Part shown: positions 17,962-49,120 of the stretch, piece by piece | How positions within the stretch are numbered: the stretch's first letter is position 1 | How the letters are laid out: every line of letters begins with the position of its first letter | Assembly (NCBI GenBank): GCA_950295325.1 | Contig: OX485803.1 | Span: 38,455,554-38,519,553 of the forward strand | DNA from: Polytrichum commune | Lineage: Eukaryota; Streptophyta; Polytrichopsida; Polytrichales; Polytrichaceae | Length of the DNA: 64,000 bases | Direction: 5' to 3' | Made by a program: the position numbers and the translations under genes | The notes under the pieces: generated by a model | The model's input: only the letters and a program-made list of their open reading frames with translations | Told to the model about the DNA's origin: nothing | Database searches by the model: none

Positions 17962-18650
17962 CAGGGCTGATTTTTCACAAAGTTTTTGCCCGTCCACGTC
18001 CAAAAACCTTGAATTGAAAGGCAAAAAAATTGCAACCTGTCCCAAAACCGGTAATTTCTAAACCAACCCGTCCATGGAAAGGTTAAAGAAAAAACAACCC
18101 ATCCCAAAACTGGTTTGAAAATGAAAATACCCGTCCCGCAAGAGGTATAAATAAGTCTACAATGTTGGTAAAAAATTAGAAAAAAAAACCAAAAAACCAA
18201 AAACCAAAAAACCAAAAGATGTCGACATGTGACTGGTTGCACTTGGAAACAATAGGATCTTGACAAATTGTGCCTTCAATGTTTGCCTTCAGTTATTTGT
18301 CTTTTGTTGTTGATTCTCATCTTTCCAGTCCACCCATTCTAAATTTTGTGGTTGATGAATTAATGTATGTAGGTGAATCAAGCACTTCAAGATTGATATT
18401 TTGACTGGGTATTAGTGGTTTGATTGCATTATGCTTATATGCACATGTCATATATGACATAATGCAACTTATATTTGTATCATTGTTTTTGGAAAAAATG
18501 ATCAAACAAATTGTTATTTTGAGAACCTGTCCAAAGTGAATTTGACACGTCCAAAAATTGGTTCATTTTCTAAGAACCCGTCCACTGGGTATGTTTTTTT
18601 TTTTATGAACATGTCCCTAGACATGTTAGGGCCCTTGTCAAAAATCACTG
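17962..18650. mobile_element. Non-autonomous hAT element, family H, short copy
   Basis: Ends are CAGGGCTGATTTTTCACAAA and, inverted, CAGTGATTTTTGACAAGG, flanked by 8-bp duplications CTTAGAGT (17954-17961) and CTTTGAGT (18651-18658), one mismatch. CAGGG ends and an 8-bp duplication are the hAT hallmark. It shares more than 500 bp with the longer copy at 55371-56471, from which it differs mainly by an internal deletion removing the transposase relic. It sits inside a minisatellite unit. Confidence 0.85.
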
Positions 18651-18810
18651 CTTTGAGTGATGGATGGGCACGTTTAATTGGGAGGGCGGACATGGGACAA
18701 GGCTCAACAAAGGCACTGTTGGTGTAATCCTTGCGGCTAGTGATAGTGGAACACTCCATGTAGATGGGCATGGATGGACCAAGGGTTCAACAAAGGCATT
18801 AGAGACAATA

Positions 18811-19126
18811 GAGTTATCCTTTAATTCAAATGAGTTTGGTAGGGAGTTTCTTACAAAACCTTCCATGTTTGGCAAGCTTGAGGTGCATGCGTCGGAGGTC
18901 GTGTGGAGGTTTGAACCAATAACATTCTATATCAGGGAGTTGAGGGTCAAACTCGTTTTAGCACCGCATGCCTTGCTAAAACGAGTTTGACCCTCAACTC
19001 CCTGATATAGAATGTTATTGGTTCAAACCTCCACACGACCTCCGACGCATGCACCTCAAGCTTGCCAAACATGGAAGGTTTTGTAAGAAACTCCCTACCA
19101 AACTCCTTTGAATTAAAGGATAACTT
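18811..19126. mobile_element. Near-perfect palindromic MITE (TA target duplication)
   Basis: Arms 18813-18963 and 18974-19124 are exact reverse complements over 151 bp apart from a single mismatch (AAATGAG versus AAAGGAG), around a 10-base centre CCGCATGCCT. Terminal GAGTTATCC/GGATAACTT is flanked by TA on both sides (18809-18810, 19127-19128), and the interrupted minisatellite unit reads across the site. Its ends match those of 54730-54970. TA duplication suggests a Tc1/mariner-superfamily MITE. The extreme arm identity implies a recent origin or continuing gene conversion. The transcript would form a very long hairpin. Confidence 0.85.
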
Positions 19127-20029
19127 TAATATGCTTAGAGCTAATGATGGAGGGGCACTTCGAGAAGGCGGGTGGGGGGTGGACCAAGGACTTGACAATG
19201 CCATTGGAGGTGCAATAATCCTTGGAGTTAAGCTAGTGATGGTGGGGCACTTCGAGTAGGTGGGTGGGGATGGACCAAATACTTGAGAAAATGCATACGG
19301 AGACATGTTCCTTAGAACTAAGCTAGTGATGGAAGGCCACTTTGGGTCAAGATGAGTGTGTGGGGATGGACCAAGGACTCAACAAAGGCATGCGGAGAGA
19401 CAATCCTTACAAGTAAGGTAGTGATGGAGGGGCACTTTTGGGTTGAGATGAGTGGGTGGGGTGGAGATGGACCAAAGACTCAAGAAAGGCATTCTGGAGA
19501 CACGATGCTTAGAGCTAAGCTAAGCTAGTGACGGAGTGGCACTTTTGAGTTGATGGGTGGGGATGGACCAAAGACTCAACAAAGGCATTTGGAGAGACGA
19601 TCTTTAGGACTGAGCTAGTGATGGAGGGAGGGACACTTTTGGGTTGAGATGAGTGGGTGGGGTGGAGATGAACCAATGGCTCAACAAAGGCATTTAGAAA
19701 CACGATGCTTAGAGCTAAGCTAGTGATGAAGTGGCACTTCGAGTAGGTGGGTGGGGATGGACCAAGGACTCAACAAAGGCATTTGAAGACAATCTTGAGG
19801 ACTAAGCTAGTGATGGAGGGAGGGACACTTTTGAGTGGAGATGAGTGGGTGGGGTGGAGATGGACCAAGGGCTCAACAAAGGCATTTGGAGAGATGATGC
19901 TTAGAGCTAAGCTAAGCTAGTGATGGAGTGGCACTTTTGAGGTGAGTTGAGTTGAGTGAGTGAGTGGGTGGGGATGAGGCAAGGGTTGAAGGAGGTGTTA
20001 ACTTTAGAGGGGGTGGCCCCTTCGCGGAG

Positions 20030-20131: not shown

Positions 20132-23100
20132 ATGGGGATGCTTGGAGGCCTGGCTCGCGCTTCTTCTTCCTGCTACTGCTCCACCTCCTCCGCCGGCTGC
20201 TCCCTGGTCTCTTTGCGATCCCTTCGTCTCACCCCTACCCCTATCGCCTCTATCGCCTGCGATGCGCCACGCAGGAAACGTGAGACTTTGAGTAGCGTGC
20301 CTTCACAGCAACAACAGCACCAACAGCACCACTCCCACTCTCGACGCTTCGTCTCCAGCTTCTTTGTGTCGTGTCCACCCTCGGCATTGGGTCGCAGTGA
20401 TCGACGAGCCATCATGGCGGGAGGTGGAGTTGTGAAGGCGATTCTCACATCTGAGGTTGGGCTCACCAAGCCCGCCGCTCCCGTGGTTCCCGAGGTGCTC
20501 CAATCTTCTCCTTCCTCCCCCCCGTACCGCAATGCTCTCATTTGGCACGTGTGTCAATGTGGGATGTGTTATCTGCTTTTTGTTGGAAGAGGGGGCGTTT
20601 GCCACGTCCTATTTTGTGACAGTTTGGGTTATGGGTCCGACGGGTAGAGTGCCGATGTGATGGCTTTGGTTCACGGCGATGGTAGGCTGGACGATTCCAG
20701 ATTAAAAGTACTGCTTGAATGTTTGCTCAGTTGTCTTTGCCATCAATTCGTCTATTGAAGAGGTCGTGCCTGAATTGGATCTCTGACTTGCATGTGCTAC
20801 ATTTGTATGTGGATGGTGTTGGAGCGCAGTTTATGCCAGGGTTTAGGTCAAGTCACAACAGATGGCATTTGTGGCGGTTGTTGAAGTGTCAGGGAGAGAG
20901 GCTGCATTAAGGAAAGATTATTGCTAAGAAAATAGCAGGAGGTTTTAACCTTTTTTCCTGAGCTGCGTGTTGACATGACATGAACTCGGTTCTTAACTTT
21001 GGTTATGCCAATGAACGCATTCATTTTAGCGTGCAATGGATTGTGAAATTGACGGCTCGAATGCGTGCCGGTTATGAATTGGTGTATCGTGTTTTGTATT
21101 TGCCACCTGTCTTATTGTGTTTTGTATGCGTCAATTTGGCTGCTTGCTTCTGTTTTACTTTAACAAATCATGTCTTCATGCATGTGAGGTAAGTAACAAG
21201 AAATATGAATTGAAGAACATGAAGGTTTCGTGAGGGCTTTTCATTGATTGGTCGCATGGATGTGCTGGGACAGATTGCTGTTCAATCATCTGAGGCAGAT
21301 GCAGTCAAATGGAAAGGCGACATCCTAGTTTTTGGAGTCTTTGAGGGGTGTCTTGAGGACAAGGAACTGAAAAGCCTAGATGAACTTGTTGGAGGTCTTA
21401 TAAGTGATATTATCAAAGAAGAAGACTTTTCAGGGAAGATTGGGCAATCGACATACACCCGACTGGCTGGTCATAGCTTCAAGCGTGTGGGTCTGGTTGG
21501 GCTTGGGAAAGTTAATGCAGTTAGCAAATCCACCAAGGTTTGGAAAACTTTAGGTGAGAACATTGCTACTGCGTCCAAAACTGCACAGGCCACCTCTGCA
21601 GCAGTTCTTATTGCTGGCTCCAGTGATCTCTCTGAGGATGCGAAATTGGCAGCTGCATCAGCTATTACTTCAGGTATAAAAATATTAAGCATACCTGCTG
21701 TGCTTTGAGTCTGACAACTTGAACTTGAATCTTACTTGTGATTCACGAAGTAAGATTCAAGTATCTAACGATTGGAGTGCACAAATGTATTTGATGCATG
21801 TCAATAATATTGAGGTAGGGTGACAGACATAGTTTCATTGATGACTTCCACACTCTAAACAAAGCTTTGTTACGGCCTTCTTACAGTTGGAGCTTTGTGT
21901 CTCCTATCTGTTATTGTGGACAAATTGCTGGAGGTTCTACAGCTTTTCTACTGAGACGTCCACCTGCTTCATGTGAATACAATCTTGTCAAGTATATAGT
22001 AGCTGAACTGGTGATGTACTGGTATTTGCATTGTGCAACAGGTGTCGTTTTGGGAACATATGAGGATACAAGGTTCAAATCAGAGTCAAAAAAACCCTTG
22101 CTGAGAAGTTTGGATCTCCTAGGCTTAGGAAACATTGCTCAACTGGAAGGTCTACTTGCCCAGACTGTCCACCAATGTGCTGGTGTCATGCTTGCAAAGC
22201 AGCTCGTCAATGCACCTCCAAATGTGCTCATTCCAAGTAAGCATCACTCTGTCAAAAAGATTCCATGTGTAACTACTACCTTTGTGTTCCTAGTGCTTGT
22301 GAAGTATAGAAACCAGTGAGGAGGCTTCCTAACAAGCCATACCCGCTATTAATTAATTTATTCTGTTTTTTTTAAAATTAATTAATTAATTAATTATTTT
22401 TTGTCACCCAATCAGTTTGTAACCTACCTGCTGTTCTCCTTGTTAGGGTTTAGCTGCCTACAGGTCCTGAAGGTTGTCTTTTGTGCAGGTGTGCTTGCGG
22501 ATGAGGCAGAGAATATTGCAGCAGCCCATGGAGATGTCATGACTGCCAAAATTCTCGACAAGAAGGAATGTGAGGAGCTCAAGATGGGCGCCTATCTTGG
22601 TGTTGCTGCAGCTTCTACCAACCCTCCTAAGTTTATTCACTTGTGCTACAAGCCTCCTTCAGGCACGGTGACTACGAAATTGGCTATTGTTGGCAAGGGC
22701 TTAACCTTTGACAGGTGTGCACCATCTCCTGGATAGTGCTATTCTTGATGTCACTGATATCTATATCTTGTGCATCTACACCTTCTTGCTTCACATAGAT
22801 TCTGTCAATCTTCCGCAATCAAATTTTGAAGCTGGTTCAATTTTGAGTTCAGAAATTGACATGTGCTAGTAATCACTTATGATTGGGTGCAACAGTGGAG
22901 GCTACAACCTGAAGACTGGACCAGGCTGCATGATTGAGCTCATGAAGTTTGACATGGGAGGTGCAGCTGCTGTGCTTGGTGCAGCAAAAGCTATTGCTGC
23001 TATTAAGCCACCAGGTGTTGAGGTGTGCATGTTGTGCACCCAATGAATTTGTGTCTGCTCTTCAGCATCGATGGGAGGTTATTGATATCTGAGCATATTG

Positions 23101-25066: not shown

Positions 25067-26177
25067 TGGGGTAGCTTTTGAGGCACTGAGGTGGAAGGAG
25101 ACCTAGCTGGTGATGTGGGATGACTTTGTAAATTGCAAATGCAACGAGAGGTTCTACAATGTATACGTATGTGGCTATGCATAAATTTTTGTGGCAAGAG
25201 TATTTGGCTATGTTTTGGTGATGTGGAGCTAGCACGTGGCCCCCACTTCCAAAGTTATTGATGTAAATGTGGCTAACAAATTGCAAAGAACATATAAATT
25301 GGCTACATGTCAGCATTATTGTGAAAAAAAATTGTTCCATGGGAAAATTGAACTCCGGTCATTGGATTCTGTTCTCTCTAGTGCGAAATGACTTGCAAAA
25401 TCACACATTAGCACAACCCATCCACCACCCTAACAAAATTAGTATCTAAGCAGTTGACATGCATTTGACATCTTTTGACAACGGTTCCTTCCAAATATAG
25501 TTAGTGCACTTAACATGCAGTGTTCAGGATTGAAGTCTTCAGTGTCCTTCAAACGTGATTTGGCCCTTCAAAATATACCTCTCAAAACAACCTTTCAAGA
25601 CGCAACCCCAAATTGAAAATGAAGACATCACTTGAAGTCCTCAATATAATCTGCCTGCCACAAGAACCAACAAGCGTAAGGCATTGTCACTCCAAGAAGT
25701 GGAGTTAGATGGTTGAATCTTAATTCTTCACATTGTATTGGAAACATGTACCATATAATTCATTCACAAGTTTAATATGAGTTTTGTATTTCATTTCTAT
25801 AATCTTAGTTTGATGTGTTGGATTTGAAACAACCGTTCAACTGAATGGCTGAAATTTCAGAGCCCTTTAAAATGAAACTCATATGAGGGCTTCAATCTTG
25901 AACGCTACTTACATGTCCTCCCACGAATATTTCCCTTGCATCTTTCCATTTGCTGTGGATTGTATCCAATTGCATGTGCACAATATGCACTACAAACACA
26001 AATTCCACTATCGTGGAAATGAAACTTCATCCGCCCTCTATCACCATCAATTCTATTTGCACAAATTCATTTCTATCAATATCCATATCACCTTCTCCTC
26101 ATACATCTTTTAATTAATCCATACTCGGTACCTCAATCTCATAATCTTCATGTCCTGCACCCTTGTCAAGCACTTTC
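25067..26177. other. Gene-free interval
   Basis: No recognised gene. The far right end joins a minus-strand reading frame discussed under the split gene relic. Confidence 0.35.
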
Positions 26178-26235
26178 TAGTGCATTTGGTTGATTGCATC
26201 ACATTCTTGACATTTAGCAAAGACACCTTTTGCAA
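26178..26235 (-). pseudogene. Split unidentified gene relic, segment 3 (right of it the copia element)
   Basis: Minus strand from the copia target site reads AKGVFAKCQECDAINQMH then a stop. The frame is continuous with the open frame on the other side of the copia element (34616 upward) when the 8.4-kb insertion and one TGCAA copy are ignored. C-x2-C spacing (AKCQECD) is notable. Family not recognised. Confidence 0.4.
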
Positions 26236-26481
26236 TGTTAAGGCAACCTATAGCTAGCATGATGACCTATAGCCAAATATAGATGACGGCAGCTACCGGA
26301 AGGTAGTTGCACTACACCCGAGGTAGTGGGTCCAGGGTTAGTTAAACATAATACTGTAGGCGGCTAAGTGACGGCTAATTGCCATTAATGTATTCAAACT
26401 TAAATACATATATAAACGGTCACATGGCTTTGGTTGGCCACTTGCACTATTACTCTTAGTGCCTATTGCCTAGTCTTAACA
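26236..26481 (+). repeat. 5' LTR of the copia element
   Basis: Starts TGTTAAGGCAACC, ends TAGTCTTAACA; 246 bp, same length as the 3' LTR. A TATA-like stretch (ACATATATAAACGG, about 26406-26420) could be its promoter. Followed by the primer-binding site. Confidence 0.95.
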
Positions 26482-26495
26482 CGTTATCAGTCATG
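26482..26495 (+). other. Putative primer-binding site of the copia element
   Basis: CGTTATCAGTCATG directly follows the 5' LTR. Many plant copia elements have ACGTTATCAG at this place. The match is shorter than usual, so the tRNA is not assigned. Confidence 0.5.
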
Positions 26496-26734
26496 ATTGC
26501 TTGAGAGCTCCTAGTTCAATTTTTTTTTTCTCTTTCCCGCTCAAGACTAAGCTTCAACCCTACATAAACGTCTGCTCACTGTCTAGTTCGCTCTCTCCGC
26601 TCCGCTACACCACGTGGAAGCGCTGGTCCTACATCAGCTCATCTGATTCACTTTTTAGATCAGATTGCAACTAGTATTAGATGATCAGACTACAAATTAG
26701 AGAGACCCTAATGGTTAGTTAGAACACCTTAGAG

Positions 26735-27090
26735 TGTTGCTGCTGCAGATACAAGTTGATACAGTTTAGATTTGCTGCAGGCAAACTTCTTCTAGCTGCT
26801 ACAGAAAACTTTCTCCTCTTGCTGCTACAGACAAATTCCTTCTTTTGCTGCTGCAGACAACCTCATTTTTGTTGCTGCAAATAACTTCTCCATATTGCCG
26901 CAGAAAACCTCTTATTGTTGCTGTCACAGAGAACTTCTCCTTGTTGATGCAGACAACACTTACCTGCTGCCGCTGCAGACAACTTTCATTCGCTGCTGCC
27001 GCAAACACGTCATTATACTGCTGCCGCAAACAATCTCTTTCTGCTGCTCCCGAAGGTGGCCTGCTGCTGATGCAGCGAGTTGCTGACTAG
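26735..27090 (+). repeat. CTGCTGC-rich tandem repeats in the copia 5' leader
   Basis: About a dozen imperfect units of about 24-30 bp, each like TTGCTGCTGCAGACAACTTC, lie between the primer-binding site and gag. Leader repeats of this type occur in plant LTR elements. All reading frames through them are incidental. Confidence 0.7.
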
Positions 27091-27348
27091 CTCTGATAAG
27101 CTTACTTACTTACTTACTTTCATTCTGGCCAAACTCACATTGAATCTGAAACCACAACAAATCCAGTCCAGATACACAAATGTACACTTTACTAGATCAG
27201 AAGTATATTTGTATACTTCCGATGCTACATTTGTTCAATCAAATTGTAGTAGGCCGAAACCAAAAAGTATCATCACTCTAGTATATAACTTACAACACAC
27301 TCTATAGATAGCTCACCTAGTTACCATCAGATTCCTAGATGATATGAA

Positions 27349-28247
27349 ATGGCATCATCTTTGAATCCGATAGTGACACTAGCTACCATTAGTCGACCAC
27401 TAGTAAATATCGGTGGAAACATGAAAGTGGAATTCAACCCCCTTGCTGCCGATGGGTCGAACTACCTAGAATGGGAAAATGATGCTAGGGTAGCTCTAGG
27501 AGCCGAAAAAACAACTATCTACCTTGACAAAACAACAGCCGAAGGTCGGCCCGATTCTCTAAAATGTCAAGTGTTGATATATTCTTCTCCGAAGGCACCT
27601 ACACCCGTCCTTGAGACAACAATACATTAAAGTTGATCACCCAGCTAACCTGTGGACTCATCTACGTGACAGGTTCCATCATGAACATACCATATTTCTA
27701 CCTGAGGCTAGAAATAACAAGATTAATCTCAGGGCCCTTGATTTTCCCGATTTGCTCTCATTTAACGGAGAACTCCACCGAATCTCATCTCAACTTAGCT
27801 TGTGTGGTGAGCCACTCACTGAGGCTCAACTGATCGATAAGACTCTCTCCACTTTCCCACCTGCTTTGCAATTCTTGCCCAACAATACCGAAACATGAAA
27901 TTTGAGAAACATAGCACACTGATGTCTCACCTTCTTCTCGTAGAGAAACATCAGGCAATGTTGCTTAAAAATGCAGAATCCAGGCCCGCACGTGAGATCC
28001 ACGCCATGATAGCTGTTGGACCATCAAAAAGAGCGCCGGCCGTACACCTCTCGGAGGCACCGCGCCGATCACCAAGGGGTTTCTAACGCCGACCTCCACC
28101 TAGGTCATTTAAATTCAAGCATAGGGACCAAAAACCGAGGTATGTTCCGCCAAAACATAAAGCCTAAAAGCAATCCACATCCTCATGTCATAAATGTGGC
28201 CGCTCGGCCATTATGCGAGAGATTGTCGAGCATCGGCTTACGTAATT
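27349..28247 (+). pseudogene. copia gag (frameshifted), with broken zinc knuckle
   Basis: Begins MASSLNPIVTLATISRP. The DGSNYLEWENDARVAL block is the typical start of the copia gag (UBN2-like) domain. After a frame change near 27610 it continues with WTHLRDRFHHEHT and SSQLSLCGEPLTEAQLIDKTLSTF. A zinc knuckle is recognisable at about 28190-28235: CHKCGR lies in one frame and the GH-x4-C half in the next, so a one-base indel splits it. At least three frame breaks. Confidence 0.85.
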
Positions 28248-28250
28248 TAG

Positions 28251-28578
28251 ATGTATAAGGAGCTACAGAAATTACGTAGCCAAAATAGAGAATCTCATGC
28301 AGTCCAAATTCCATCTATCCCTGATATGGACATAGAGAATTACATGACTGTTACAACTTCAATGACTCAAGGTATGGAGGCTGCCCTATTGGACAATGCC
28401 TCTACACATACCGTATTGAGGAGTTTAATGTTTTTATCATTCCCGGCTGGTAACATAGGTTGGCGAACTAGCCACGTTACCACAATAGCGGGACAAAAAA
28501 ACATAACCTTCAAAGAAGGCATAACAACTGTGTTGCTACCAGGGGACCACCCGATAACATGTCGAGATGCTATGTATG
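28251..28578 (+). pseudogene. copia aspartic protease region
   Basis: Open from 28251. ALLDNASTHTVL at about 28385 is the active-site block (usual D-S/T-A/G; here DNAS, so catalysis is doubtful). The downstream GQKNITFKEGITTVLLPGDHP strand pattern is as in copia proteases. The frame is cut at 28579 by the solo LTR and picks up again after it at about 30145 (PDAFRSLISYRYLRANGIH). Confidence 0.8.
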
Positions 28579-30139
28579 TGTGAGGCCAAACCCACCACAC
28601 GTAAGCGTCCTAGTCCAGGTGATGATTTTGAGAATCACATTCACTTCATATCATCATAAGGTGAATTGCTATGTGGCTCTCATGCCCAAGGTACTCACTT
28701 TATCTTAACTCAACTTGTTACATTATTTTGAATCTCTTGGCGTATGGTGGAATGTGATTTCTCAAGGGTCCAACCTGCGGCCTTGGCCACGCATGCCCTT
28801 AAAGAGAGTCCCCTAGCACCCTTGATCTTACTCCCCTTGTATTGACCATCGCTAGAGTGGTTAACGTTCTCCATCACTTGTGCACTTGCTTTATTTAATA
28901 TAGAGGCTGCATGCGTTGAAAAACGCTATTCTCTATAACCCATAGTAGGTACACTTTGCCAGTGAAGGCCACACATGCCAAGCAAGCCTAATGTGACTAG
29001 CTACTTATCTATGAGCTAATTAAGTTGTCTACCTACTAGGCTATCTTATTTGTAACTAGTACCCATTAGTTAATGAGTAATTGCCACCTTGCTTACTTCC
29101 ACTAATTAACTACCCATTGTAGCTTCATGTGTATAGGTTAATAACCCAACCAACTTCCAGTATGTAGCCCAGTAAACCAGCTTAATGTAGCTCAGAAATT
29201 CAGCTCCCAGCTGCTGCAGCCGAATACAACCCAGTAGACCAGTTGAATGTAGCTCAGGAAATCAGCTCTCAGCTGCTGCAGCCGAATGCAAACCAGTAAC
29301 TAGCTTAATGTAGCTCAGAAATTCAGCTCCCAGCTGCTGCAGCCGAATGCAGCCCAGTAGACCAGCTTAATGTAGCTCAGAAAATCAGCTCCCAGCTGCT
29401 GCAGCCGAATGCAGACCAGTAACCAGCTTCCAGCTGCTGTCTAAATATTAAACTAGCCACCCCACACCACTAATTAAGACTTCCACTAAACTCAAGATAA
29501 TCTTTCAACTAACCAACTAATTCCAACCTCTTAATTCTAAATGTTTAACTACCTAATCCCTAATATTATGTCTAATGCTAAGAGCTTACCCCAAGTGTGA
29601 GCGGTGAGAGAGAGAGCTTAACTAATTAACTTCACTAAAACTAATAACCCACACACGTGGCTCAAGCTCTTAAGAACTTGCTCCCTTGAGAGCGCTTAAT
29701 GGAGAGAGAGGGAAATGAGAGAAAAAACACCTTAAGTAGCAAAGAGGGAGAGAGGGAGAGAAAGAGAGAGAGAGGTGAGGATAGGGTGAGAAGATAAGCA
29801 CCTCCAATCACAATTCTTTAACCCTCTCCTCCAAAGTAGGGACTAATCCCCATCCACCAAGCTTCCTTCTTCCTAAACCAACAAGGTGGATCCAAAAGTG
29901 GGCATTTAACCCGTGGAGCTCACCTTGCCTCACCTTACCCCTTACTCACATAATCAAAGCATCCTCTTATTGAAATCAAACCTTGAAATAGCCACGCCAC
30001 ACCACCTAATGCCTAAATTTAAATCCACACCACACTTCATTCTTTTTATGTTTTGTGAATCATCATAACACATCAAAGTCAAACTAAAATTGGTTTCGAA
30101 GAGTTAATCACCACATGTGGGCACCATTTTGGGCTCACA
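28579..30139 (+). mobile_element. Solo LTR (1561 bp) inserted in the copia protease/integrase junction
   Basis: Starts TGTGAGGCC and ends GGGCTCACA, giving the terminal inverted TGTGAG/CTCACA of an LTR, with a 5-bp duplication GTATG (28574-28578) and GCATG (30140-30144), one mismatch. No internal retrotransposon genes are present, so it is best explained as a solo LTR left by LTR-LTR recombination. The interrupted copia frame is in register across it. Family (probably gypsy by length) not proven. Confidence 0.8.
29165..29430 (+). repeat. Tandem repeat inside the solo LTR, about 62 bp x 4
   Basis: Units contain CAGCTTAATGTAGCTCAGAA, TTCAGCTCCCAGCTGCTGCA and GCCGAATGCAGCCCAGTAGA. Four successive copies with few differences; a fifth is partial. 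Confidence 0.85.
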
Positions 30140-30144
30140 GCATG

Positions 30145-30384
30145 CTCCCGATGCCTTCCGAAGCCTGATCAGCTACCGGTACCTAAGGGCAAATGGTATC
30201 CACCTCTCTACCACGATAGAGAACGATGAAGAGGCGCTGACACTCAGGCAGGGACAGAGAACCCTCGCCACCGCAATAGCGGGAGTCGACGGCCTGTATG
30301 AGATCGCTATCAAAGCAATTAGCCCCACCCCTAGGGTTGAGGAAGAAGTACGTTTGGTTGCACGGGACAGAGGTCCCGATGTAA
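30145..30384 (+). pseudogene. copia segment between protease and integrase (part 1)
   Basis: Continues the protease frame after the solo LTR: PDAFRSLISYRYLRANGIH and GVDGLYEIAIKAISPTPR, then RDRGPDV just before the CACTA insertion at 30385. This is the region leading to the GAG-pre-integrase domain. Confidence 0.8.
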
Positions 30385-30640
30385 CACTACAAGAGTTTAT
30401 ATGACCTATTTGATAAAAATGTGACGAAATTCTGTTAATTTGGGTGTTATATAGGGCACCTTGATTCGGTCATACAATTAACAGAGTTCTGTCAATTTCT
30501 TTGTCATCTGGGACAATTATACACGTAGGATTCCATTTACTCCGGCCCCCTTGCCATGTTGGATTCTCTTTATCTCGTCATTTACCCATGGTGATGTGGT
30601 TTAATGTCCAAGTTATATTAGTAAAAAATCCTAAATTAGT

Positions 30641-30828
30641 AATCCACCCTCGCATTCGGGGCCTACTCACATAGGTCTAAGGGCGAAGGGCCACCTCACC
30701 TAACCTAGGCTAATGGACAAAGCCACCTACCCACCCTAGGCGAAGCCAAGGGTGAGGGGTCAAAGGGATCGAACCTTGAACCTCTTGGCTTAGTGTGAAG
30801 GCCTTAGCCACTAAGACATCGCTCATTA
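30641..30828 (-). repeat. tRNA-derived SINE-like insert within the CACTA element
   Basis: On the minus strand from 30824, GATGTCTTAGTGGCTAAGGCC resembles a tRNA D-arm/A box. About 30 bases on, GGTTCGATCCC (30765-30775) is a near-perfect B box. The GC-rich tail to about 30641 is unlike the AT-rich host element. No complete cloverleaf, so it is a SINE-like or tRNA-derived sequence and not a tRNA gene. Confidence 0.6.
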
Positions 30829-31039
30829 CATGATATAGGCCAAGTATGTAAGAGTTTTGTATGAAGAAGCCATAAGACTTATAAACTTATGTATATATAT
30901 TTTTTAATTAGTGAAAGTAAAAAAAACATAGAATTAATGTATTTACTGTTTTTAATTAGTACGTATTGTATTTGTATTAAAAACAATTTACAAAAATACT
31001 CCTAAACATTATTACAGTAATTACAGTAATTATTTTAAC

Positions 31040-31290
31040 TACATCAATTACAATAATTTCAGTATTTACCTAAATTAGAAATTTTCAATATTTACTTAAA
31101 TTAGCAAATTTCGGTATTGACCTAAATTAGCAAATTTCAATATTTACTTAAATTAGCAAATTTCAATATTTACTTAAATTAACAAATTTCAGTATTTACT
31201 TAAATTAACAAAATTCAGTATTTAGTTAAATTGGTAATTTCAGTATTTACTTAAATTGGTAATTTCAGTATTTACATTAATTAATTAAAT
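31040..31290 (+). repeat. Short tandem repeats in the CACTA element, about 27 bp x 9
   Basis: Units like AAATTAGCAAATTTCAATAT TTACTT repeat with variation (TTAGCAAATTT, TTAACAAATTT, TTGGTAATTT). CACTA elements usually carry repeated subterminal transposase-binding motifs; these may be such a block or simple satellite expansion. Confidence 0.7.
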
Positions 31291-31584
31291 TAGTTATTAC
31301 ATTAATTATAGTAAATACATTATTTATATTAATTACTTATACTAGTAATTACAATAATTAAAAACCTTTTGTAACACCTTTTGTTGTTAATAAATATGAG
31401 ACACATGCTCAGGTGAAGGGAATAAGTTAAACGTGAAATATATAAATCTGATGACAGAAAATTGACACAAATTTTGAATAATGCCCGAATTGACAAAAAC
31501 TCATAGCTTTGAGCTGATTTTGTCACTTCGGACATTTTAGTGTCACATTTTTGTCAATTATACACCCATTTCCTTGTAGTGTAA

Positions 31585-32340
31585 GAACCCGCAACTTAGC
31601 CCGAAAAACTGGCATATATCTCATGGCAGCTGGTCTCTCAGATATATGGCATAAAAGGCTTGGATACCTTAGCACTACTATATTTCGGAGGATGCTCCCC
31701 GTCCTGGCCGGCCATAACCTTACATCCGCGGATGCTGGCAAGATAGCCCCATGTGAGGCATGCATTTAAGGTAAGATCATCAAGAGGTCGTCCCAGTGGC
31801 AACTCCCCACCGAATTACCACCACCGCTCCATCGACTTTAAGGTGATATCTGTGGACCTATCAACCACCTTCAAATTCATTTCGGTATTTTCTAGTGCTC
31901 ATAGACGCATCCAGAAGCCACCTAGAAGTAGTCCTCTTAACCATTAGGAATCTTGTATTCTCCATAATTCTTGCAATTCTGATACGCTATAAAAACCATT
32001 TTCATGAATACCTTGTCAAATTCCTCTGGATGGATAATGCATTAAAATTTCGTTCACATGCATTTGAGGATTATTGTCCCGCATCAGGCATCACCCTTAC
32101 CTATGCCGTACCTTATGAACATTCGCAAAATGGTATTGCGGAAGCTTTCATAAAGAAAATTCAGCTAATAACTAGGTTTTTGCTCATCCATGCTAAACTC
32201 CCAGATTCATTTTGGGGCCATGCGGTTCTTCATGCCGCAACCCTCCTACGGTTGAGACCAACTTTATTCAACCAACAAATCCCATATGAACTCATTGCCG
32301 ACTGGCCACCCAACATTATCCACTTACGTGTACTTGGCTG
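31585..32340 (+). pseudogene. copia pre-integrase and integrase
   Basis: 31610-31790 has GIYLMAAGLSDIWHKRLGYLS and ends APCEACIKG-like, the GAG-pre-integrase HHCC part, with a stop near 31770. Integrase follows: GDICGPI at about 31842 (first catalytic Asp), LIDASRSHLEVVLL, then in 31895-32341 WMDNALKFRSHAFEDYC (second Asp) and EHSQNGIAEAFIKKIQ (catalytic Glu). The conserved LPDSFWGHAVLHAATLL comes next. Frameshifts separate the pieces. Confidence 0.88.
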
Positions 32341-32347
32341 ACAGATT

Positions 32348-34279
32348 TTGGTACCTGTACATGAACCACAGCGAAAAATCATAGGGATTCACCGATTCGA
32401 AGCCATTTACCTCGGATACGATTTCCCTAGTATCATCAGATATATGGATCCCAAAATTGGGACCATCCTCAAAGCCATGCTAGTAAACTGTAAGTTCATT
32501 GAACACATATTTCCCAACCCACCGGTTGACCGCACGGTCAAACAAATCCCATTAAATTTCCAGGCCCCTGAAACCTTGATTCTAAACCCGGATCCTCGAA
32601 CATCACTAGTTGACACCGAAGTCACTAAACTCATCAACCTGAAGGACCTAGTGGAACAGATCCCCGATGGTTTCTACCCGGACCTTAGAGTACTTCGGAA
32701 CCCACTACTCGGGACAAGTAACATTATACCCAACAAAAGGTATACACATTTATCAGAAAACACTAGATATTCGGAGAGGTATCCACTAAATTTATAAAAC
32801 CACCGGTAGGCCACAAACTAATTTTCTCCAGGAAATTTGATGCTAACGGCAAGTTGCTTCGATTCAAAATCCGCCTTATTGTTGAAGGTTTTTCACAACG
32901 ACCGGGAGAGGACTTCGACCAAACCTACGTGCCCGTCTTGGATATCACATAATTCAGGTACATGTTAGCATTAGCAGTCCATTTCGGCCTTGAAATCTTT
33001 CTCATGGATGTTGTAACAGCTTACCTATATGACAACCTGAATATGCTCTTATATATCTCACCCCCTTCATATTTCCTACCAAAGCTGCCTACCCCCTCAC
33101 TCGAGAGATTTCTAGGCCTACGTATATGTAAGGCATTATACGGCTTAAAATAAGCCGGCATAATGTGGTATCACCTGCTCCGAGATTTTCTGATTTCACA
33201 TGGATTTTTGCATGATCCGATTCTATCATGCATCTTTACTTTGACTCAGAACTCGCAATATCTTATTGTGGCTGTGTATGTGGATGATCTGAACTTGATT
33301 GGATCCCCGACATTGTGTAAATACACCGAGACTTACTCACGGCCCAATTTGACATGAAATTGCTCGGAAAGACCTCGTTTTGTCTTGGTGTACAGATCCA
33401 ACACTTTCTGAATGGCGTCCTTCTATACCAACAATTTTATATCCGTAAGCTGCCCAAATTCTTCAACATGAATCAGGCTGACGCATTGGCCGCGCCAATG
33501 ATCGGGAGGAGCCGCAGCGATGATGACCCGTACCGACCTTGCTCGGAGAAGGAGGAGGAGATAGTGGACATGTCCAAATACCTCACGGCGGTTGGATCGT
33601 TCACATATCAAACCACGCATACAAGGCCAGACATCGCATTCACAACAAACATGCTCGCGAGCACAGTAAAAAACCGACCGCCCACCATTGGAATGGTGTT
33701 AAGCACCTACTCCGATACTTACGAGGAACGGAAGACCTCGGGTTGTACTACAGAATGACACAAATGGCGAGATCATAGGATATGTTGACTCCGGATTCAA
33801 AACAGATGAGACAACGGACAAGTCTCAAACCGGTTACATATTCATCAAGAACGGAACACCGATATCATGGAAATCGGCCAAGCAAACCGTGACCGCCACA
33901 TCCACGAATCATGCCGAATTCCTAGCATTTCACGAAGCATCAAGAAAAACGGTATGACTAAGGACAATGCAAGAGATCCTAGCCAAACAATGCAAGCTGA
34001 ATCAAAAGTTCAAACCAACGGTCATATTCGAGGATAATACAGCATGTGTCGCCCAAATGAACACGGGTTTCATTAAGGCTGATCGGGTAAAACACATCAG
34101 CCCACATATATTCGGATTTGTTCAAGGCCTTATAGAAACATGTCAGATTGAGATAAAGAAGATAGAATCCGAAAACAACATAGCAGATATGCTTACAAAG
34201 GCATTACCTGCCTATAAGCATAAGAAGCTAGTGTTAAAGGCAGGAATGAAAACCTTACACAAACTCACTTCGAACTAGA
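32348..34279 (+). pseudogene. copia reverse transcriptase and RNase H
   Basis: 32348-32800 carries YLGYDFPSIIRYMDPKIG (end of integrase). Reverse transcriptase runs through FSQRPGEDFDQTYVPVLD, LEIFLMDVVTAYLYDNL (usually QMDVKTAFL-like), ALYGLK followed by a stop, and VAVYVDDLNLIG at about 33268 (YVDD catalytic box). RNase H includes LGKTSFCLGVQI, TRPDIAFTTNMLA, GYVDSGFKTDETTDKSQTGY, SWKSAKQTVTATSTNHAEF and VIFEDNTACVAQM, ending at ADMLTKALPAYKHKKL (stop about 34277). At least five stops or frameshifts. Confidence 0.9.
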
Positions 34280-34354
34280 TTACACTCTTTTCTTTATTGT
34301 TGATTTTTTCCTTTGGGTTTTACAGTAGTAAAGTTTTTAATGAGGTGATCGCTA

Positions 34355-34369
34355 TAGTTCGAGGAGGAG
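34355..34369 (+). other. Polypurine tract of the copia element
   Basis: GTTCGAGGAGGAG lies immediately before the TG of the 3' LTR, the expected site for plus-strand priming. Confidence 0.7.
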
Positions 34370-34615
34370 TGTTAAGGCAACCTATAGCTAGCCTGACGAC
34401 CTATAGCCGAATATAGATGACGGCAGCTACTGGAAGGTAGCTGCACTACACCCGAGGTAGTGGGTCCAGGGTTAGTTAAACATAGTATTGTAGGCGGCTA
34501 AGTGACGGCTAATCGCCATTAATGTATTCAAACTTAAATACATATATATACGGTCACATGGCTTTGGTTGGCCACTTGCACTATTACTCTTAGCGGCTAT
34601 TGCCTAGTCTTAACA
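34370..34615 (+). repeat. 3' LTR of the copia element
   Basis: 246 bp, begins TGTTAAGG and ends TTAACA. About 11 substitutions from the 5' LTR by eye (about 4.5%), no length change. Confidence 0.95.
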
Positions 34616-34936
34616 TGCAATCGATCTTCTCCTATCTTTCGATGTTGTTGCTTTTTGCTCAGTCCACGAACAAATTTTCTTATACAATCTCTTTGATGTC
34701 GATGGATTCTCTCCTTCCTCACGTTTGCAATGCAATTGTGATCCGTCAGGGGCGTGAAACACATTCCCATTCATGCTTCTTGATTCAAGGGCTTCTGCGT
34801 TGGCTTCACTTGTTCTGTGATTGCCTCACTGGATTTTCTATGAATAACCTTATGTTTGGACAAGCAATCAACTTCCAAATACACAGTTCCATTCTCTTGC
34901 AATGGATTTTCTTCACTATCACCAGTAACACGCACG
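34616..34936 (-). pseudogene. Split unidentified gene relic, segment 2 (between copia and hAT insertions)
   Basis: On the minus strand from 34936 a frame reads VTGDSEENPLQENGTVYLEV and on to KPTQKPLNQEA before a stop. An overlapping frame from MNGNVFHAPDGSQL runs open across the copia target site into AKGVFAKCQECD. The first frame is in phase with the minus-strand frame on the far side of the hAT element (KVQYVR at about 37055-37072). Two insertions thus cut the same reading frame about 310 bp apart. Family not recognised; it could be an old repeat-borne gene and not a host gene. Confidence 0.45.
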
Positions 34937-35165
34937 CAGGGTTGTCTATTGTGTCGTGACGGAGGCTAATCCCGACATAATGTCGTGGCGTCACGACACG
35001 TATCTGTCACGACATTATGCCGGATGTCGTCTTTATCCTGACGAACTTGAATTTTACCGTATTTTTTTGTGTAATTACATTACCCCAATCAGGACACGTA
35101 GGATTTACGATGTCCACGTATGGTGCCATGTCAACAAAGTAGAGGTAAAGTGGGAAAAAATTACT

Positions 35166-35460
35166 AGCGCCCGTCCCCCCCCCCCCCCCCCGTTCCCCCC
35201 GCTCCCTACGTTTCCCTCCCCCATCCGGCACCCCATCCGACCCCCATCCAGCCCCCCCCCCCCACCCATCTGAACCCGGTCCCCCCTAATCCGAACCCCC
35301 TACCCCCCTATCCGACCCGCCCCCCCCCCCTATCCGAATCCGACCCGCCCCCCCCCCCATCCGAACCCGGCCCTCCATCCGGCTATCCCCCCGTCCGCAT
35401 CCGTTCCCGCCCCCGTTCCCGTCCCCGTCCGCTCCGTTCCCCTCCCCCCTACACCCTCAT
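35166..35460 (+). repeat. C-rich low-complexity tract in the hAT element
   Basis: Runs of up to about 15 C alternate with CATCCGAACCCGG and CTATCCGAC units. No coding meaning; probably prone to sequencing and replication slippage. Confidence 0.85.
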
Positions 35461-36401
35461 TTGTCATATTTTACTACTTTGATTTTAACAGAATGATAAA
35501 CACAAAGGCAAAATGATTTACCTGGCAAGGGAAATATGCACATCCACGTCGGATTTTTCTGCCACATTGGATGCCACCTTGGCAAGAAGGTAAGTATTTT
35601 ACCCACCCTACTAGCTTCCCCCTAGTATGACCCTACGTGGACCCTATTATGTCGTGACAGAGGGGTCCCTCGGGGGGGGCACTCCCTTGTATATTTTGCA
35701 TACACCTGCGATAATGACCTATTAAAATGGGGGCTATTTACCTATGAGAAAGGATTATAAGGGATGCTAATTTTTGAAATAATGGTAAATTGTTGTGATT
35801 ATTTGCACCCTATTGGTAATTATAAATTCTTGGATGGTTGATTTTATGGTACCCTATATTACTTATATGTATTTTTTTCCCCTGATTGCCCCCATTCCTT
35901 AAAGTGTATGATACAGTAGAATTCTTGTTAGAAGCACATGTACAGAGTAAGAGAAACAAACATAAACTAGGGTTTAGGGTTCAAGGTCACACTGAAGTCC
36001 GGGCAAAGCAAAACACTGAACAATAACAACAAAAGATTGCAATTACATGTCATTAAGCAACACGAGCCAACGAATAAAAGTTGTGTTGGATAACATAGTT
36101 AGAAACCTTGAGGTCTTAAGGAACAGGCTAGCCACATGTGTCTCAAAGTCACATTTACAAGGTTTGCAGAATCCCTACAATTGATGCCTTGATCTTCCAA
36201 TCCTACACATTTGGAGGAAAATCCCACGCCATGCAAGCAAAATCCACCTAAACTAGCTAGGCTACCATTTACACATGTGGGAGATATGAGGGTACTCGAA
36301 CTGAAATGACTACTACAGATTTCAAGGTATACTAATGATCATTCAACCCTTTTTCCAAATGATATCTCCACATGTGTGAGATAGTACAAATTTAGCAGGT
36401 T

Positions 36402-36746
36402 TTATTTTTTATTTGAAATGAACTCACTCAATGAGTTTGCATCTACCTCATCTAAGGTGTAGATTTTGCTAGTTGATTCATACAGTAGAGACACAGTTGA
36501 GATAATAACATCCACATCAACCCACACACAGTCACTCTCAACATACTTATATTTGTTGAGACCCGGCTGTTTTTTTAACCAATGGAGGTAAGCCATAGCA
36601 GTTGGGAAGAGCGTTTCTCTATTTCCGTTCTGGACTGCACGTTTCATCAAGTCAATGGGTTGCCAACAATTGCCCCACTTAGTACCAACCTTCACCCTTA
36701 TCTTTTGAACCCTTCCTATATAGAACATGCCATATTTTGGTGGCAA
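36402..36746 (-). CDS. 114-aa open frame inside the hAT element, unidentified
   Basis: Begins MPPKYGMFYIGRVQKIRVKV, contains KWGNCWQPIDLMKRAVQNG, HWLKKQPGLNKYKYVESDCVW and VDVIISTVSLLYESTSKIYTL, ends at SEFISNKK with TAA. The composition is protein-like (balanced, W and Y spaced) and the frame is long for this AT-rich DNA, so it is probably a real exon or a captured gene fragment. I do not recognise the family; it does not show hAT transposase motifs. It could be one exon of a longer gene. Confidence 0.45.
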   Translation of the reverse strand: MPPKYGMFYIGRVQKIRVKVGTKWGNCWQPIDLMKRAVQNGNRETLFPTAMAYLHWLKKQPGLNKYKYVESDCVWVDVDVIISTVSLLYESTSKIYTLDEVDANSLSEFISNKK

Positions 36747-37053
36747 AGTATTTAATTTTTGAAACTATCTCTTTTTCTCCATGCTATTTTATATGTACCA
36801 CTTAGATAATTTAATCATGTTTTGTCAAATGCTATATTACATATAATCATGTTTCACAATCCCAAAGCACCCTACACTACATCTAATAATTTACAAATTT
36901 TACGCCAAATTTTTATACAAGACCCTATATTTTATCGCACGTAGTTCCTACATTTTTCGCCAGTGGCCCCCCCGAGAGGGGTCCGCCCCGACACGACACG
37001 TCATGACGTCATGACGGTGGCAGGACGTCGCGATAGACAACCCTGCACGCACG

Positions 37054-37300
37054 TATTGGACTTTCCACCTAATTATAGTGCGTTCATACTTTAATAGGAT
37101 CATCAAAAATGGTTCCTCAATGGAGCAACTACCATCAATGACATCAGTGTCGTACACTGCTACTTCCTCTTCTCTCAAAGCATGAATTTGCAAAATATCT
37201 CCACAATGAGAGCTTCCAAGATATCCTTCTCCAACATGAACATTCTTCGTATTCGACAATGATATGCGTATGATTGTATGTGTCAACATTTTTATTGCAG
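37054..37300 (-). pseudogene. Split unidentified gene relic, segment 1 (right of the hAT element)
   Basis: Minus strand from about 37270 reads SLSNTKNVHVGEGYLGSSHC, GDILQIHALREEEVAVYDTD and KYERTIIRWKVQYVR up to the hAT target site, where it is in phase with VTGDSEEN on the other side. The upstream end at about 37265-37300 (CTGCAATAAAAATG on the minus strand) could be a splice acceptor. Function unknown. Confidence 0.45.
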
Positions 37301-37432
37301 ATATTGAATGCAATATTGAATATGTATATGCAATATGCAATATTGAATATATATATATAAATATGCAATATTGAATGCAATATTGAATGCAATATTGAAT
37401 GCAATATGTATGCAATATTGAATTTGCAACAC
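37295..37432 (+). repeat. 12-bp tandem repeat TGCAATATTGAA
   Basis: About nine imperfect units of TGCAATATTGAA, with a TATATATATAAA interruption. Each unit contains the palindrome CAATATTG. Confidence 0.9.
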
Positions 37433-37439
37433 ACAATTA

Positions 37440-40400
37440 CCATTTTCCAAGATCAATATACCAATGATGTGAAAAATGGTTTGTAAATCATTAACCTTTA
37501 CATGTCAAACCCATTCCAAAGACTTTTGTTGAGATTTTAAAATGTTATCTTCTAGATAAATAAGCCACTCCCCTTCCAAAAACAAATTCACATCATTTTC
37601 TTGTTGGATTTTTTCCTTTATGGAACAATCCTTAGTATGAAGTGGCAATGCTGATGATATGTCAAAGCTTATATGTAATATTATTCACATCTCACCTACT
37701 AGAATTGTTTTTACAATGCACCTATTTAAACCAAACATGCACTATTTGATCGGTTTTATAGTGTAATCAACTTTTGACACTTACACTTATTTGTGCAATT
37801 TGTTATTAACAGATTGCACGTGCAACAATATGTGAACACGCATTGTGCGACATTTCATGAGTTCACTTTCTTTTTCAATGCTATTGGAATTACAATAACA
37901 CAATACAAACATGCAAACTTTCAAAGGAACCTTTTTGCATTTGCAAGAATATAATATTGCGGTTCTTAGACCCTATCGGGTCCCAAACACTTATTTTCAG
38001 AAATCCCAAACTCTCAAACAGCATATTTGGAAAATTTATTTCCCCCAAAGAATGCAGAATGTCTTCAGATTTTATTAATTACTTTAAACTCAATAGTTAA
38101 CACAATTGAGAGGATCTATGTATTCACTTTCAGGAATCAACAGACATGCACTTTTGATGAACATAACTAAATAAGGGGAGGTCCAATTTTCAATAGATGA
38201 TTCATCATACATTTGTTAAACCAAACACAAACTTCAAGAGGTAAAGTTCATCAATAGAAGATGGAGAACAAGAAAAACAAGTCACTTAAACACTTCAAGT
38301 ATTCAAATGTCCCAAAAAATCATCCTTGGTTCCAAAAGGTCACCAGTCCAATTGCACGCAAACATACAATCATCATGTGCACATTGTCAAGTATAGTAAA
38401 CATTTTATTTTGTGTGGCATTGAAATCGGTGTGCCATTTTAATTAGAGTGATCTTCATCACTTGTAGCAACAAGTGTCGTATGACACCCTTTGTACTTGC
38501 CACCCAATGATTGCAGGACAATCAATGTAGGTCGATGATGAATAATGTGGGTCACCCTAGATCAAAAGTTTAGTACAAAGTTGTTCATGGCCCAAATATC
38601 AATGAGTCCACTTGAAATGATGGCTTTCTCTAATAAAGGTGAGTACTTCAAATGAGTGTTTCAATGGCATAAGACCTGAATAGTAATTTGCAACTATGAA
38701 TGGTGCAATGTTTTCTTCACTTGTGGTTTTGTAACCCCTCAAACTTCTAGTGACTTCATCACACTAATGCAAAATGCGACTCACTTCGACATGACAAAGT
38801 GAACTACTCCATTCCTCGCCCAAACATTAGGGGGAATTTTTATTTTTTTTAAATGCATAGATAAGCCCCTGAATTATGCAGGGCATGGTGTGGCACACAT
38901 CACATTAGTGTTGAAGGTTGACGGCCCAAATTCTTAGTGGCACATTGTAAGATTCTCTACGAGAAAACGATGGCAAAGCAAGCCATTACATGAACTTTGT
39001 GTAGTGCTAGAGTGGGAGCTAGCAAACATGACACCTCTACTCCATAACATGAATTTTGGATTTGCTATGACAACATCAAGTATTGTGTGAGTGACAACAA
39101 AATTGAACATGTCATGGATTGGCCTATAGTACCCAACACATGGCCGCTAAAGATAGGAATCAATATCTCAAGGTAGAAGATATTGGCGCTAGCGTACGCC
39201 ATGTTTCAATTGCAGCAAGGGAGCCTCATTGTAGGTTCTTAGCAATTGGGACACTCCCCATATTTTCATTTTATTTTTGTGTGCCACTAAACCTTGACGC
39301 TCATTCAACTTCCAGATTTTCCAAGATAAAGCATTATAATTCAACAACATGAACAACATATCAGATAAAGAAATGGGAGAGGGACGGACTTATGGACGGA
39401 TACTATGTTGTTGGAGTCATTGTCATTCCCATATCTAGGGTTTGGAGTGTTCATCAATATATCTCCAAGAATGATAACCCTTAATGTGTCATAATTGATG
39501 ACATCTCATAATACACATGCCTAGACTTCATCAAAATTGTCTTCATGGCTTTGGGAAAGGAAGGAAAATTGTTGTATTGCAAACACTTGTACTATGAGTT
39601 TCAATTTCTATACAAGGTGATTTACGACAACAACAAGTTCATCCATGCTCTAACATATACCTACAACAAGTTCATGCGACCACTTGAGTAGTTATTGAAC
39701 ACAAGTAGTGATGCTAGTATAATGTTCAATTATAATGTTTCAAAATATAAGTTGATGACATTAATTGTTTCTTATCTACTTTGGTTGCAGCCAATAATGT
39801 TTTGGATTATTACAATAAAAATCAACAATTGACTAAATACTATTCTAAGAGTCTATGGTTATAGGCCTCCTTATGTTCTTGATTTTTGAAATGTTAATAC
39901 AATTCAATTGAATAAATTTAGTACCAAATTTAAGTTATGACCCCAATAGTCAATCACCACTCACTTGATCACTGCCCATGAGATAGTTTCTTTCGCGGTG
40001 TGGCTAGGGCTTATAGTTGGCCTCTCCAACATGAATAACCTTCATGTTTTACAAAGCTCAAAAAAAAAATTGTTCATATCCTGAGGGGTGGACTCTTCAA
40101 TGGAAATCTAAATGACGTGCATGAGTCACTATAAAATTAAACCCCGTGTATACAAGGAATTTATAGAGAAAAATAGATGTATGCGTACTTATGGCATGCT
40201 AGAAAATGGACTCATGTATTTATACTAAGCTATTTAATTTGATCCGATGTTTGACTCCACTCTATATAAAAAATATGACTCATGAGTTAAATAAGCCTTT
40301 ATTACACATAAAATTCACTTTCACTATCCAATGAGAATTTAGTCATTGAACGTGTTTTTTTCCATAGCATGTAACTCAAGATTGTATCAAACAAACAAAG

Positions 40401-47863: not shown

Positions 47864-48445
47864 CTAATCTGCTAAGTTCAGTTGCGTCGCCATATCATGC
47901 AGCTTGTTCTCACTCCTCGCCAATCCACGAATTACATACTTATCAATAATGCTCTTGAGCCTGTCCGCACAAAATTTGAGAGTTTTCAACCCTTCCTCCT
48001 CACCAACAGCAAGCTCCAAATGACGAAGGCATCGAGCGAGCTCACGCCTGAAATGCTCAAGTTCGTGTTTGTCTTTCTTATTTCGACTCTCTTCAACGCC
48101 ATTTTTCAACCCAAACTGATCTCTCTTCCGCCGCTGCAGCTTCTCCGTGTACTTATGATCCACTCGCTTCTTCATTTCATCCAGGAGAACATCCAAGTCC
48201 TCCATAGCCATTGCAGTAGTACTAAGTTGCTTCTTGTTGTTGATGGTGGTGGTGGCCAAATTTTGTAGCCTTTCCTCGGCACTCTGCACTTCGGTCAGGA
48301 GCTTCTCTAATTCATTCCGCACGTCCTTCTCGAGCACTTTTGCAAAGAGTGTCTTTCGGATCAGTTTGAGCAAGGCCTTGGCGAGCGAAATCAGCACCGG
48401 TAGTGCAACAACTACGGCCGTGGCGATTAAAACCACTTCTGCCAT
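47864..48445 (-). CDS. 193-aa protein with N-terminal hydrophobic helix and coiled coil, possibly RPW8-like
   Basis: Intronless frame from ATG at 48445 to a stop at 47864. Residues 1-27 (MAEVVLIATAVVVALPVLIS ...) form a hydrophobic helix suitable as a membrane anchor. It is followed by a basic patch (KLIRKTLFAKVLEK), heptad-rich helices (ELEKLLTEVQSAEERLQNLA), a very basic segment (KLQRRKRDQFGLKNG) and a second helical half to the C-terminus. The MAEVV start, an N-terminal membrane helix and a four-helix-bundle-like length resemble RPW8 and RPW8-type coiled-coil domains of plant immunity proteins, but no diagnostic motif is visible. No nucleotide-binding or LRR domain follows. Composition is clearly coding. 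Function is inferred only weakly. Confidence 0.72.
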   Translation of the reverse strand: MAEVVLIATAVVVALPVLISLAKALLKLIRKTLFAKVLEKDVRNELEKLLTEVQSAEERLQNLATTTINNKKQLSTTAMAMEDLDVLLDEMKKRVDHKYTEKLQRRKRDQFGLKNGVEESRNKKDKHELEHFRRELARCLRHLELAVGEEEGLKTLKFCADRLKSIIDKYVIRGLARSENKLHDMATQLNLAD

Positions 48446-48450
48446 CTGAT

Positions 48451-49120
48451 ACGTACGTGGACGGAATTTTCAACCGACGAACTGAACTCCGAGGTAGACT
48501 TTTAGCATTTGGGTAGTCGACTTGGAATCAAAGCTACTGATATGATGATATTCCATTACCAAGCCGCAGTTCTAATCTATTAGAGAGTCTCAAACCTAAA
48601 CCCAATCTAGGAGGAAGAACTTCTATCTGTCAGATAGTAAGAGAGAAAGACAAGGAACTAGCCTACTAAGCAGATTGTCCCCAGATTGATCACTTGGCAC
48701 TAATACAATCAATGTTCGAAAGATAATCTGACAACAAAGGATTTCACACTGGTGCAACGCACATTTAGATACAAGAAAGGATAGCCATCTTACAAAGTCA
48801 TACATAAGTGGACGCAATTTTCGACCTAAGCATTGAACTCAGGCTATTGGTATTTGGGTAGTCGACTTGGAACCAAAGCTATATGATAATATTCTGTTAC
48901 CTATCTGCAGACTGCATTTCCAATTGATTTGAGAGTTTCAAACCTAGACCTCATTCAGGAGGAAGGACTTCTATCTGTCAGACAGTAAGACAGAAAGACG
49001 AGGAAGCCTAGCAGATTGTCCACTTATGCAATCAAAGTTTGAAAGATGATCCGACAGCGAAGATTATGACACTCAGGTGCAACGCACATTCGAATCCGAG
49101 AAAGGAGAGCCAACGTCGAA
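48451..49120. repeat. Direct duplication of about 330 bp upstream of the 193-aa gene
   Basis: Two copies, about 48451-48800 and 48801-49120, share in order GTGGACG(G/C)AATTTTC, ATTTGGGTAGTCGACTTGGA, GAGGAAG(A/G)ACTTCTATCTG, TCAGA(T/C)AGTAAGA, and GGTGCAACGCACATT. The proximal copy abuts the gene's start codon region, so promoter or 5' UTR sequence has been tandemly duplicated. Confidence 0.75.

Follow-up and report, generated by a model that had tools for sequence, protein, structure and literature searches.

A probably decayed, low-copy stretch of the Polytrichum commune genome that served as a landing site for several transposons

Do two transposons that lie close together in Polytrichum commune interrupt a gene? 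The question arises at positions 26178 to 37300 of a 64,000-nucleotide stretch of contig OX485803.1 (assembly GCA_950295325.1; C1:38455554-38519553), the whole of which is here called the window. An original prediction, made from the letters alone, held that this locus hides an unidentified gene, or an older repeat-borne gene, whose minus-strand reading frame was cut by a hAT and a copia element. When the inserts are set aside, three segments join, and we consider it probable that they form one anonymous, low-copy, decayed relic that has been unconstrained since its duplication and became a landing site for several transposons. The argument is carried by a paralog on another contig, C3, which keeps both insertion sites empty, and by the differences between the two copies, which show no codon-position bias. 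The features, for which LTR stands for long terminal repeat, TSD for target-site duplication, and MITE for miniature inverted-repeat transposable element, are as follows.

37054-37230, minus strand: relic segment 1, upstream (in the minus sense) of the hAT-like element, with frame A (ALREEEVAVYDTDVIDGSCSIEEPF...KVQYVR) and tblastx similarity from 37230
34616-34936, minus strand: relic segment 2, 316 bp and one copia TSD that separate the two elements, with the end of frame A and the start of frame B
25907-26235, minus strand: relic segment 3, with the end of frame B and homology to C3 down to 26114
26236-34615, plus strand: copia LTR retrotransposon, LTRs at 26236-26481 and 34370-34615, with its coding sequence split among frames
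26231-26235 (left) and 34616-34620 (right), unstranded: copia TSD, TGCAA, exact
34937-37045, unstranded: hAT-like DNA transposon, 2109 bp, beginning and ending CAGGGTTGTCTAT, with 13 identical terminal bases and an 8-bp TSD
34929-34936 (left) and 37046-37053 (right), unstranded: TSD of the hAT-like element, CACGCACG, exact, 8 bp
25518-25906, unstranded: hAT-like MITE, the third insertion, high copy, other copies ending CAGTGTTCAAGATTGAAG / CTTCAATCTTGAACACTG

Searches of the genome (407.8 Mb in 64 contigs) covered segment 2, the frame A peptide, and positions 25300-26235 and 37054-38600; the count of relic copies rests on these queries. Segment 2 has a single further match, at C3 29275432-29275584, and the four protein matches of the A peptide are split evenly between the window and C3. 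The C3 locus (L002, G000:C3) aligns with the window at 76% identity over 254 bases, 79% over 205, and 75% over 165, of which the 79% piece includes the hAT junction at segment 1 and the 76% piece crosses the copia site at segment 3. L002 carries neither the hAT-like nor the copia insert and is continuous through both target sites, so both empty sites are real. Together with the exact TSDs, this bears out the prediction that two elements had entered one older stretch, and the empty sites that it proposed to look for were found in the paralog. The locus is in that respect a clean, small case in which natural empty sites have been kept by a paralog within the same genome.

The extent of the relic is bounded by several further comparisons. 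Below 26114, homology between L002 and the window resumes at most as a weak 22-base match (E 0.58), which lies past the 4.4-kb insert of the C3 copy and alone is not significant, and self-comparison of the window gave no second relic copy at E 1e-3. With 25300-26235, 40 of 1107 first-look candidates were scored and the MITE filled the list; with 37054-38600, 40 of 2617 were scored, mostly high-copy repeats, the known C3 copy was not listed, and further weak copies may have been overlooked. Aligned with the window, the C3 copy shows gaps (11, 2, and 18 bases) and carries about 60 additional bases.

The reading frames behave largely as predicted. Removal of the hAT insert and one TSD joins KVQYVR to VTGDSEEN on the minus strand (frame A), and the frame opening with MNGNVFHAPDG (frame B) crosses the copia site in phase into AKGVFAKCQECD. 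Frames A and B are, as the prediction also recognized, two different minus frames, and the 11-base gap in the C3 alignment falls exactly at the change between them. In C3, the frame DNGPMYFEVDCSTKHKFIHRESSKAF...ESRSMNGNVFHAPT reads on along the same strand without the frame change, and the A-to-B reading is 61% identical in residues between window and C3; before the end common to both copies, stops interrupt the C3 sequence once in frame A and twice in frame B.

If these frames had encoded a protein since the duplication, differences between the copies should depend on codon position, and they are instead about equal over the three positions in both A (27, 21, and 24 of 101, 100, and 101) and B (19, 16, and 20 of 94, 94, and 93). 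Over 160 codons, the ratio of nonsynonymous to synonymous divergence (dN/dS) is 0.54 in the proposed frame (dN 0.19, dS 0.35), compared with 0.62, 0.53, 0.59, 0.61, and 0.82 in five control readings; because all readings fall below 1, the baseline of the method is not 1 here and the proposed frame is not special. Likewise, tblastx gives similar best scores on both strands, 88.1 and 87.7 bits.

Family searches covered Pfam, PDB, Rfam (for the window), and viral contigs (by peptide). In Pfam, frames A and B match only DUF325 (E 0.09) and Kp4 (E 0.049), at chance level and well short of the cut-offs; in PDB, the A and B peptides have one chance-level chain match (E 0.94) and no other; among the viral contigs, the peptides have no relative; and the window has no Rfam match at gathering scores. 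The claim that the locus hides an unidentified gene thus finds no support, with no family match above chance in these databases, no codon-position bias, and dN/dS not below the control readings. Its companion, an older repeat-borne gene, may apply: the sequence exists in two copies or more, and the one on C3 is fairly open on the same strand.

The ages of the parts can be ordered tentatively. The two 246-bp copia LTRs are 95.5% identical (8 transitions and 3 transversions; Kimura two-parameter distance 0.046), and because this divergence is far below that between the copies, most of the relic's drift should predate copia. The stretch was probably drifting long before copia arrived, given that the copies are so much more diverged than the LTRs and that their differences carry no sign of constraint. 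From these sequence comparisons we infer both the order of events and the relic's lack of function. The relic would have been duplicated long ago, and its copies would then have diverged without visible protein-coding constraint. The window copy collected the hAT-like element, copia, and the MITE, and the C3 copy a LINE-like (long interspersed nuclear element-like) tail, a Harbinger-like element carrying another copia, and a short insertion. The mechanism would be an ordinary one: each element duplicated a short target, of 8 bp for the hAT-like elements and 5 bp for copia, on entering DNA in which an insertion is harmless. Chance, helped by the purine richness of the minus strand, would account for part of the joined open frames, and what is left of an old coding frame perhaps for another part. 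The MITE lies just beyond segment 3 and two high-copy repeats just beyond segment 1. Transposon clusters occur in duplicated pseudogene relics of plant genomes, and the window relic resembles these in gathering several unrelated insertions in one unconstrained duplicated stretch, but differs in being itself without a named family.

How unusual, then, is this openness? Counted in codons, the six frames stay open at the hAT site for 124, 74, 8, 49, 10, and 182, and at the copia site for 124, 65, 53, 10, 87, and 91. The 182-codon minus frame includes a stop-free GCAATATTGAAT repeat, without which it measures 136 codons, and the proposed minus frame across the copia site has 87. One frame on the plus strand stays open for 124 codons through both sites, and openness therefore does not single out the minus strand. 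At the hAT site, the joined frame was accordingly rejected as sole proof of a minus-strand gene, a plus frame being open there too. In 1,000 dinucleotide shuffles of a 1461-bp segment, 136 codons at the hAT site were reached in 3.7%, and at the copia site 87 codons in 29.6% and 124 in 7.1%. Shuffles of 0.9 kb reached 182 codons in 4 of 300 and 124 in 34 of 300, and those of 2.5 kb reached 124 in 10 of 300. As background, 4.4% of unmasked window bases fall within frames of 182 codons or more and 10.6% within frames of 124 or more; the mask took out an aminopeptidase gene, copia, the hAT-like element, 52.9-53.5 kb, and 59.3-64 kb, and other unrecognized genes may remain in that background.

Codon usage and three-base periodicity were compared with hand-picked reference stretches (for codon usage, eight from the aminopeptidase gene, one from a MAM33-like gene, and one open reading frame [ORF] at 47.9 kb). 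The ten references score -0.03 to 0.55 (leave-one-out), and 92 nongenic frames average -0.35 with a 95th percentile of -0.05. Three of the four minus pieces score below every reference stretch (A upstream, -0.18; B, -0.20; the third minus frame, -0.19), and the plus frame scores -0.37. Periodicity is weak in A as a whole (p 0.024; downstream part, 0.04), whereas five references (three aminopeptidase stretches, MAM33, and the 47.9-kb ORF) give p values of 0.000, 0.000, 0.046, 0.006, and 0.000.

The decayed-relic reading admits two finer versions, compatible with it and overlapping it in their odds. In one, close to an even bet, the open frames are purely chance products of noncoding DNA and the ancestor never coded; the 124-codon plus frame through both sites, the share of the window in long open frames, and the frequency of 87 codons at the copia site among the shuffles all fit. 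Several observations weigh against that version or against the decayed-relic reading as a whole. Against pure chance, the best frames at both sites (136 and 124 codons) were jointly reached in 1.7% of the 1461-bp shuffles, and at least 182 codons at the hAT site in 0 of 300 shuffles of 2.5 kb. Against both, minus frames of 133 codons or more are scarce in composition-matched Markov sequence, with 11 in 3 Mb x 3 frames. Against the decayed-relic reading, the downstream part of A has a codon score of 0.05 (0.053), inside the reference range, one of four pieces to be so, and above the nongenic 95th percentile, and the minus A-to-B reading of the window is stop-free over 177 residues with one frame change. 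Moreover, the comparison involves two copies, to which constraint on an older ancestor is invisible, and if C3 were a dead duplicate, its drift would dilute any constraint signal of the window copy. Pure chance also leaves unexplained why the same strand is favored in the C3 copy. By the shuffle, window-background, and Markov results, the open-frame excess, which the prediction had made one of its checks, is present but modest, and it was examined after the fact.

The other finer version, which we regard as quite possible without wagering on it, holds that the relic derives from a real coding exon, of a host gene or an old transposon gene, in which A to B was once continuous, both copies being pseudogenes whose decay began before the insertions and went on after them. 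It gains from the continuous C3 frame, the 61% residue identity, the stop-free composite in the window (set beside three stops in C3 before the common end), and the weak periodicity of A. However, 1 of 11 open frames arising by chance is just as periodic, A upstream (p 0.51) and B (p 0.22) are aperiodic where reference exons of 83 and 140 codons reach p < 0.002, dN/dS equals that of the controls, and no family matches. A more specific proposal, that A to B is what is left of a lineage-specific protein family not yet on record (at least some 180 residues, with CxxC near the end) that was dead here before copia and lives on in related plants, strikes us as unlikely; were the frame indeed from a lost family, the locus would be a modest record of gene loss. 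What the original prediction suggested, a functional host gene broken by the hAT-like and copia insertions, is very improbable. The frames are in phase across both confirmed empty sites, as that idea would have it, but there is no codon-position bias relative to the paralog, the copia LTRs are much younger than the drift, the frame changes between A and B, frame A upstream runs into a simple repeat, and no Pfam or PDB relative rises above chance. The breaking of a working gene by two insertions was rejected on the codon-position counts and dN/dS against C3. The case also carries a caution: frames that join across removed transposons are weak evidence for a gene, and here the codon-position test against a paralog gave it no support.

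The spacing predicted at about 310 bp between two close insertions measures 316 bp in the preinsertion sequence (inserts and one TSD each removed), and the prediction overlooked the MITE, which sits 329 bp beyond the copia site. The copia element resembles plant Ty1/copia elements in its LTRs (TGTTA...TAACA), 5-bp TSD, and RVT_2 reverse transcriptase domain (E 4.2e-33; 115.4 bits versus a cut-off of 31.6), and nothing about it is unusual except that its domains are split over frames; because the other domain pieces lie in different frames, it is probably defective. The hAT-like element and the MITE share with the hAT superfamily (nonautonomous elements and MITEs) 8-bp TSDs and short terminal repeats starting CAG, and their family names are putative, read from sequence. 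The hAT-like element differs in that Pfam comparison of its three minus frames gave no protein domain or transposase, and it is assigned by its ends only. Within it, a 120-amino-acid open frame (36405-36764, minus strand) has no Pfam match and no periodicity (p 0.25). The best other MITE copies are 91% identical (among the 40 of 1107 candidates scored); among 11 copies viewed, which run CAGTGTTC...GAACACTG, exact 8-bp duplications were seen by eye in L013 and L015-L018, while the window copy, also read by eye, has a degraded right end and an imperfect duplication.

The C3 copy has a history of its own. One insert appears LINE-like, measuring about 850 bp, containing a simple stretch rich in A/T, and having duplicated roughly 15 bases of its target; another, a putatively Harbinger-like element of 4.4 kb with ends GGGCCGGTTCACA / GGCCAGTTCACAC, carries a copia element related to that of the window (66.7% over 871 bases); and a short insertion is also present. 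Inside the Harbinger-like element adjoining the C3 copy, L004 338-3756 (minus strand) holds long, mostly open copia frames (604 and 555 amino acids, overlapping).

The relic's neighbor is a leucine aminopeptidase gene with Pfam support at 21223-21705 and 22386-22733 and further exons by eye to about 24.5 kb, whose best relative of solved structure (PDB) is a chloroplastic plant enzyme. Just beyond segment 1 lie two dispersed high-copy repeats (38046-38295 and 38387-38573), about 74 to 81% identical to the main other copies listed. Elsewhere in the window, positions 18809-19128 form an adjoining inverted repeat with 160-nucleotide arms, 98% complementary and without a spacer, and 17962-18648 and 55371-56466 are a repeat pair of 84 to 86% identity with 37 kb between them. 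A 201-amino-acid open frame at 47867-48469 (minus strand) has strong periodicity and a sub-threshold WAPL match only, 53106-53474 (plus strand) is an exon of a MAM33-like mitochondrial glycoprotein gene (E 1.4e-07), and a 473-amino-acid open frame at 59359-60780 (plus strand) has clear three-base periodicity (0 of 500 shuffles) and no Pfam match. Finally, the stretch at 61989-63641 (plus strand) is LINE-like and includes an endonuclease domain (Exo_endo_phos, E 5.9e-06), and the ORF preceding that domain contains GDIEPHPGP, which we take to resemble a 2A ribosome-skipping motif.

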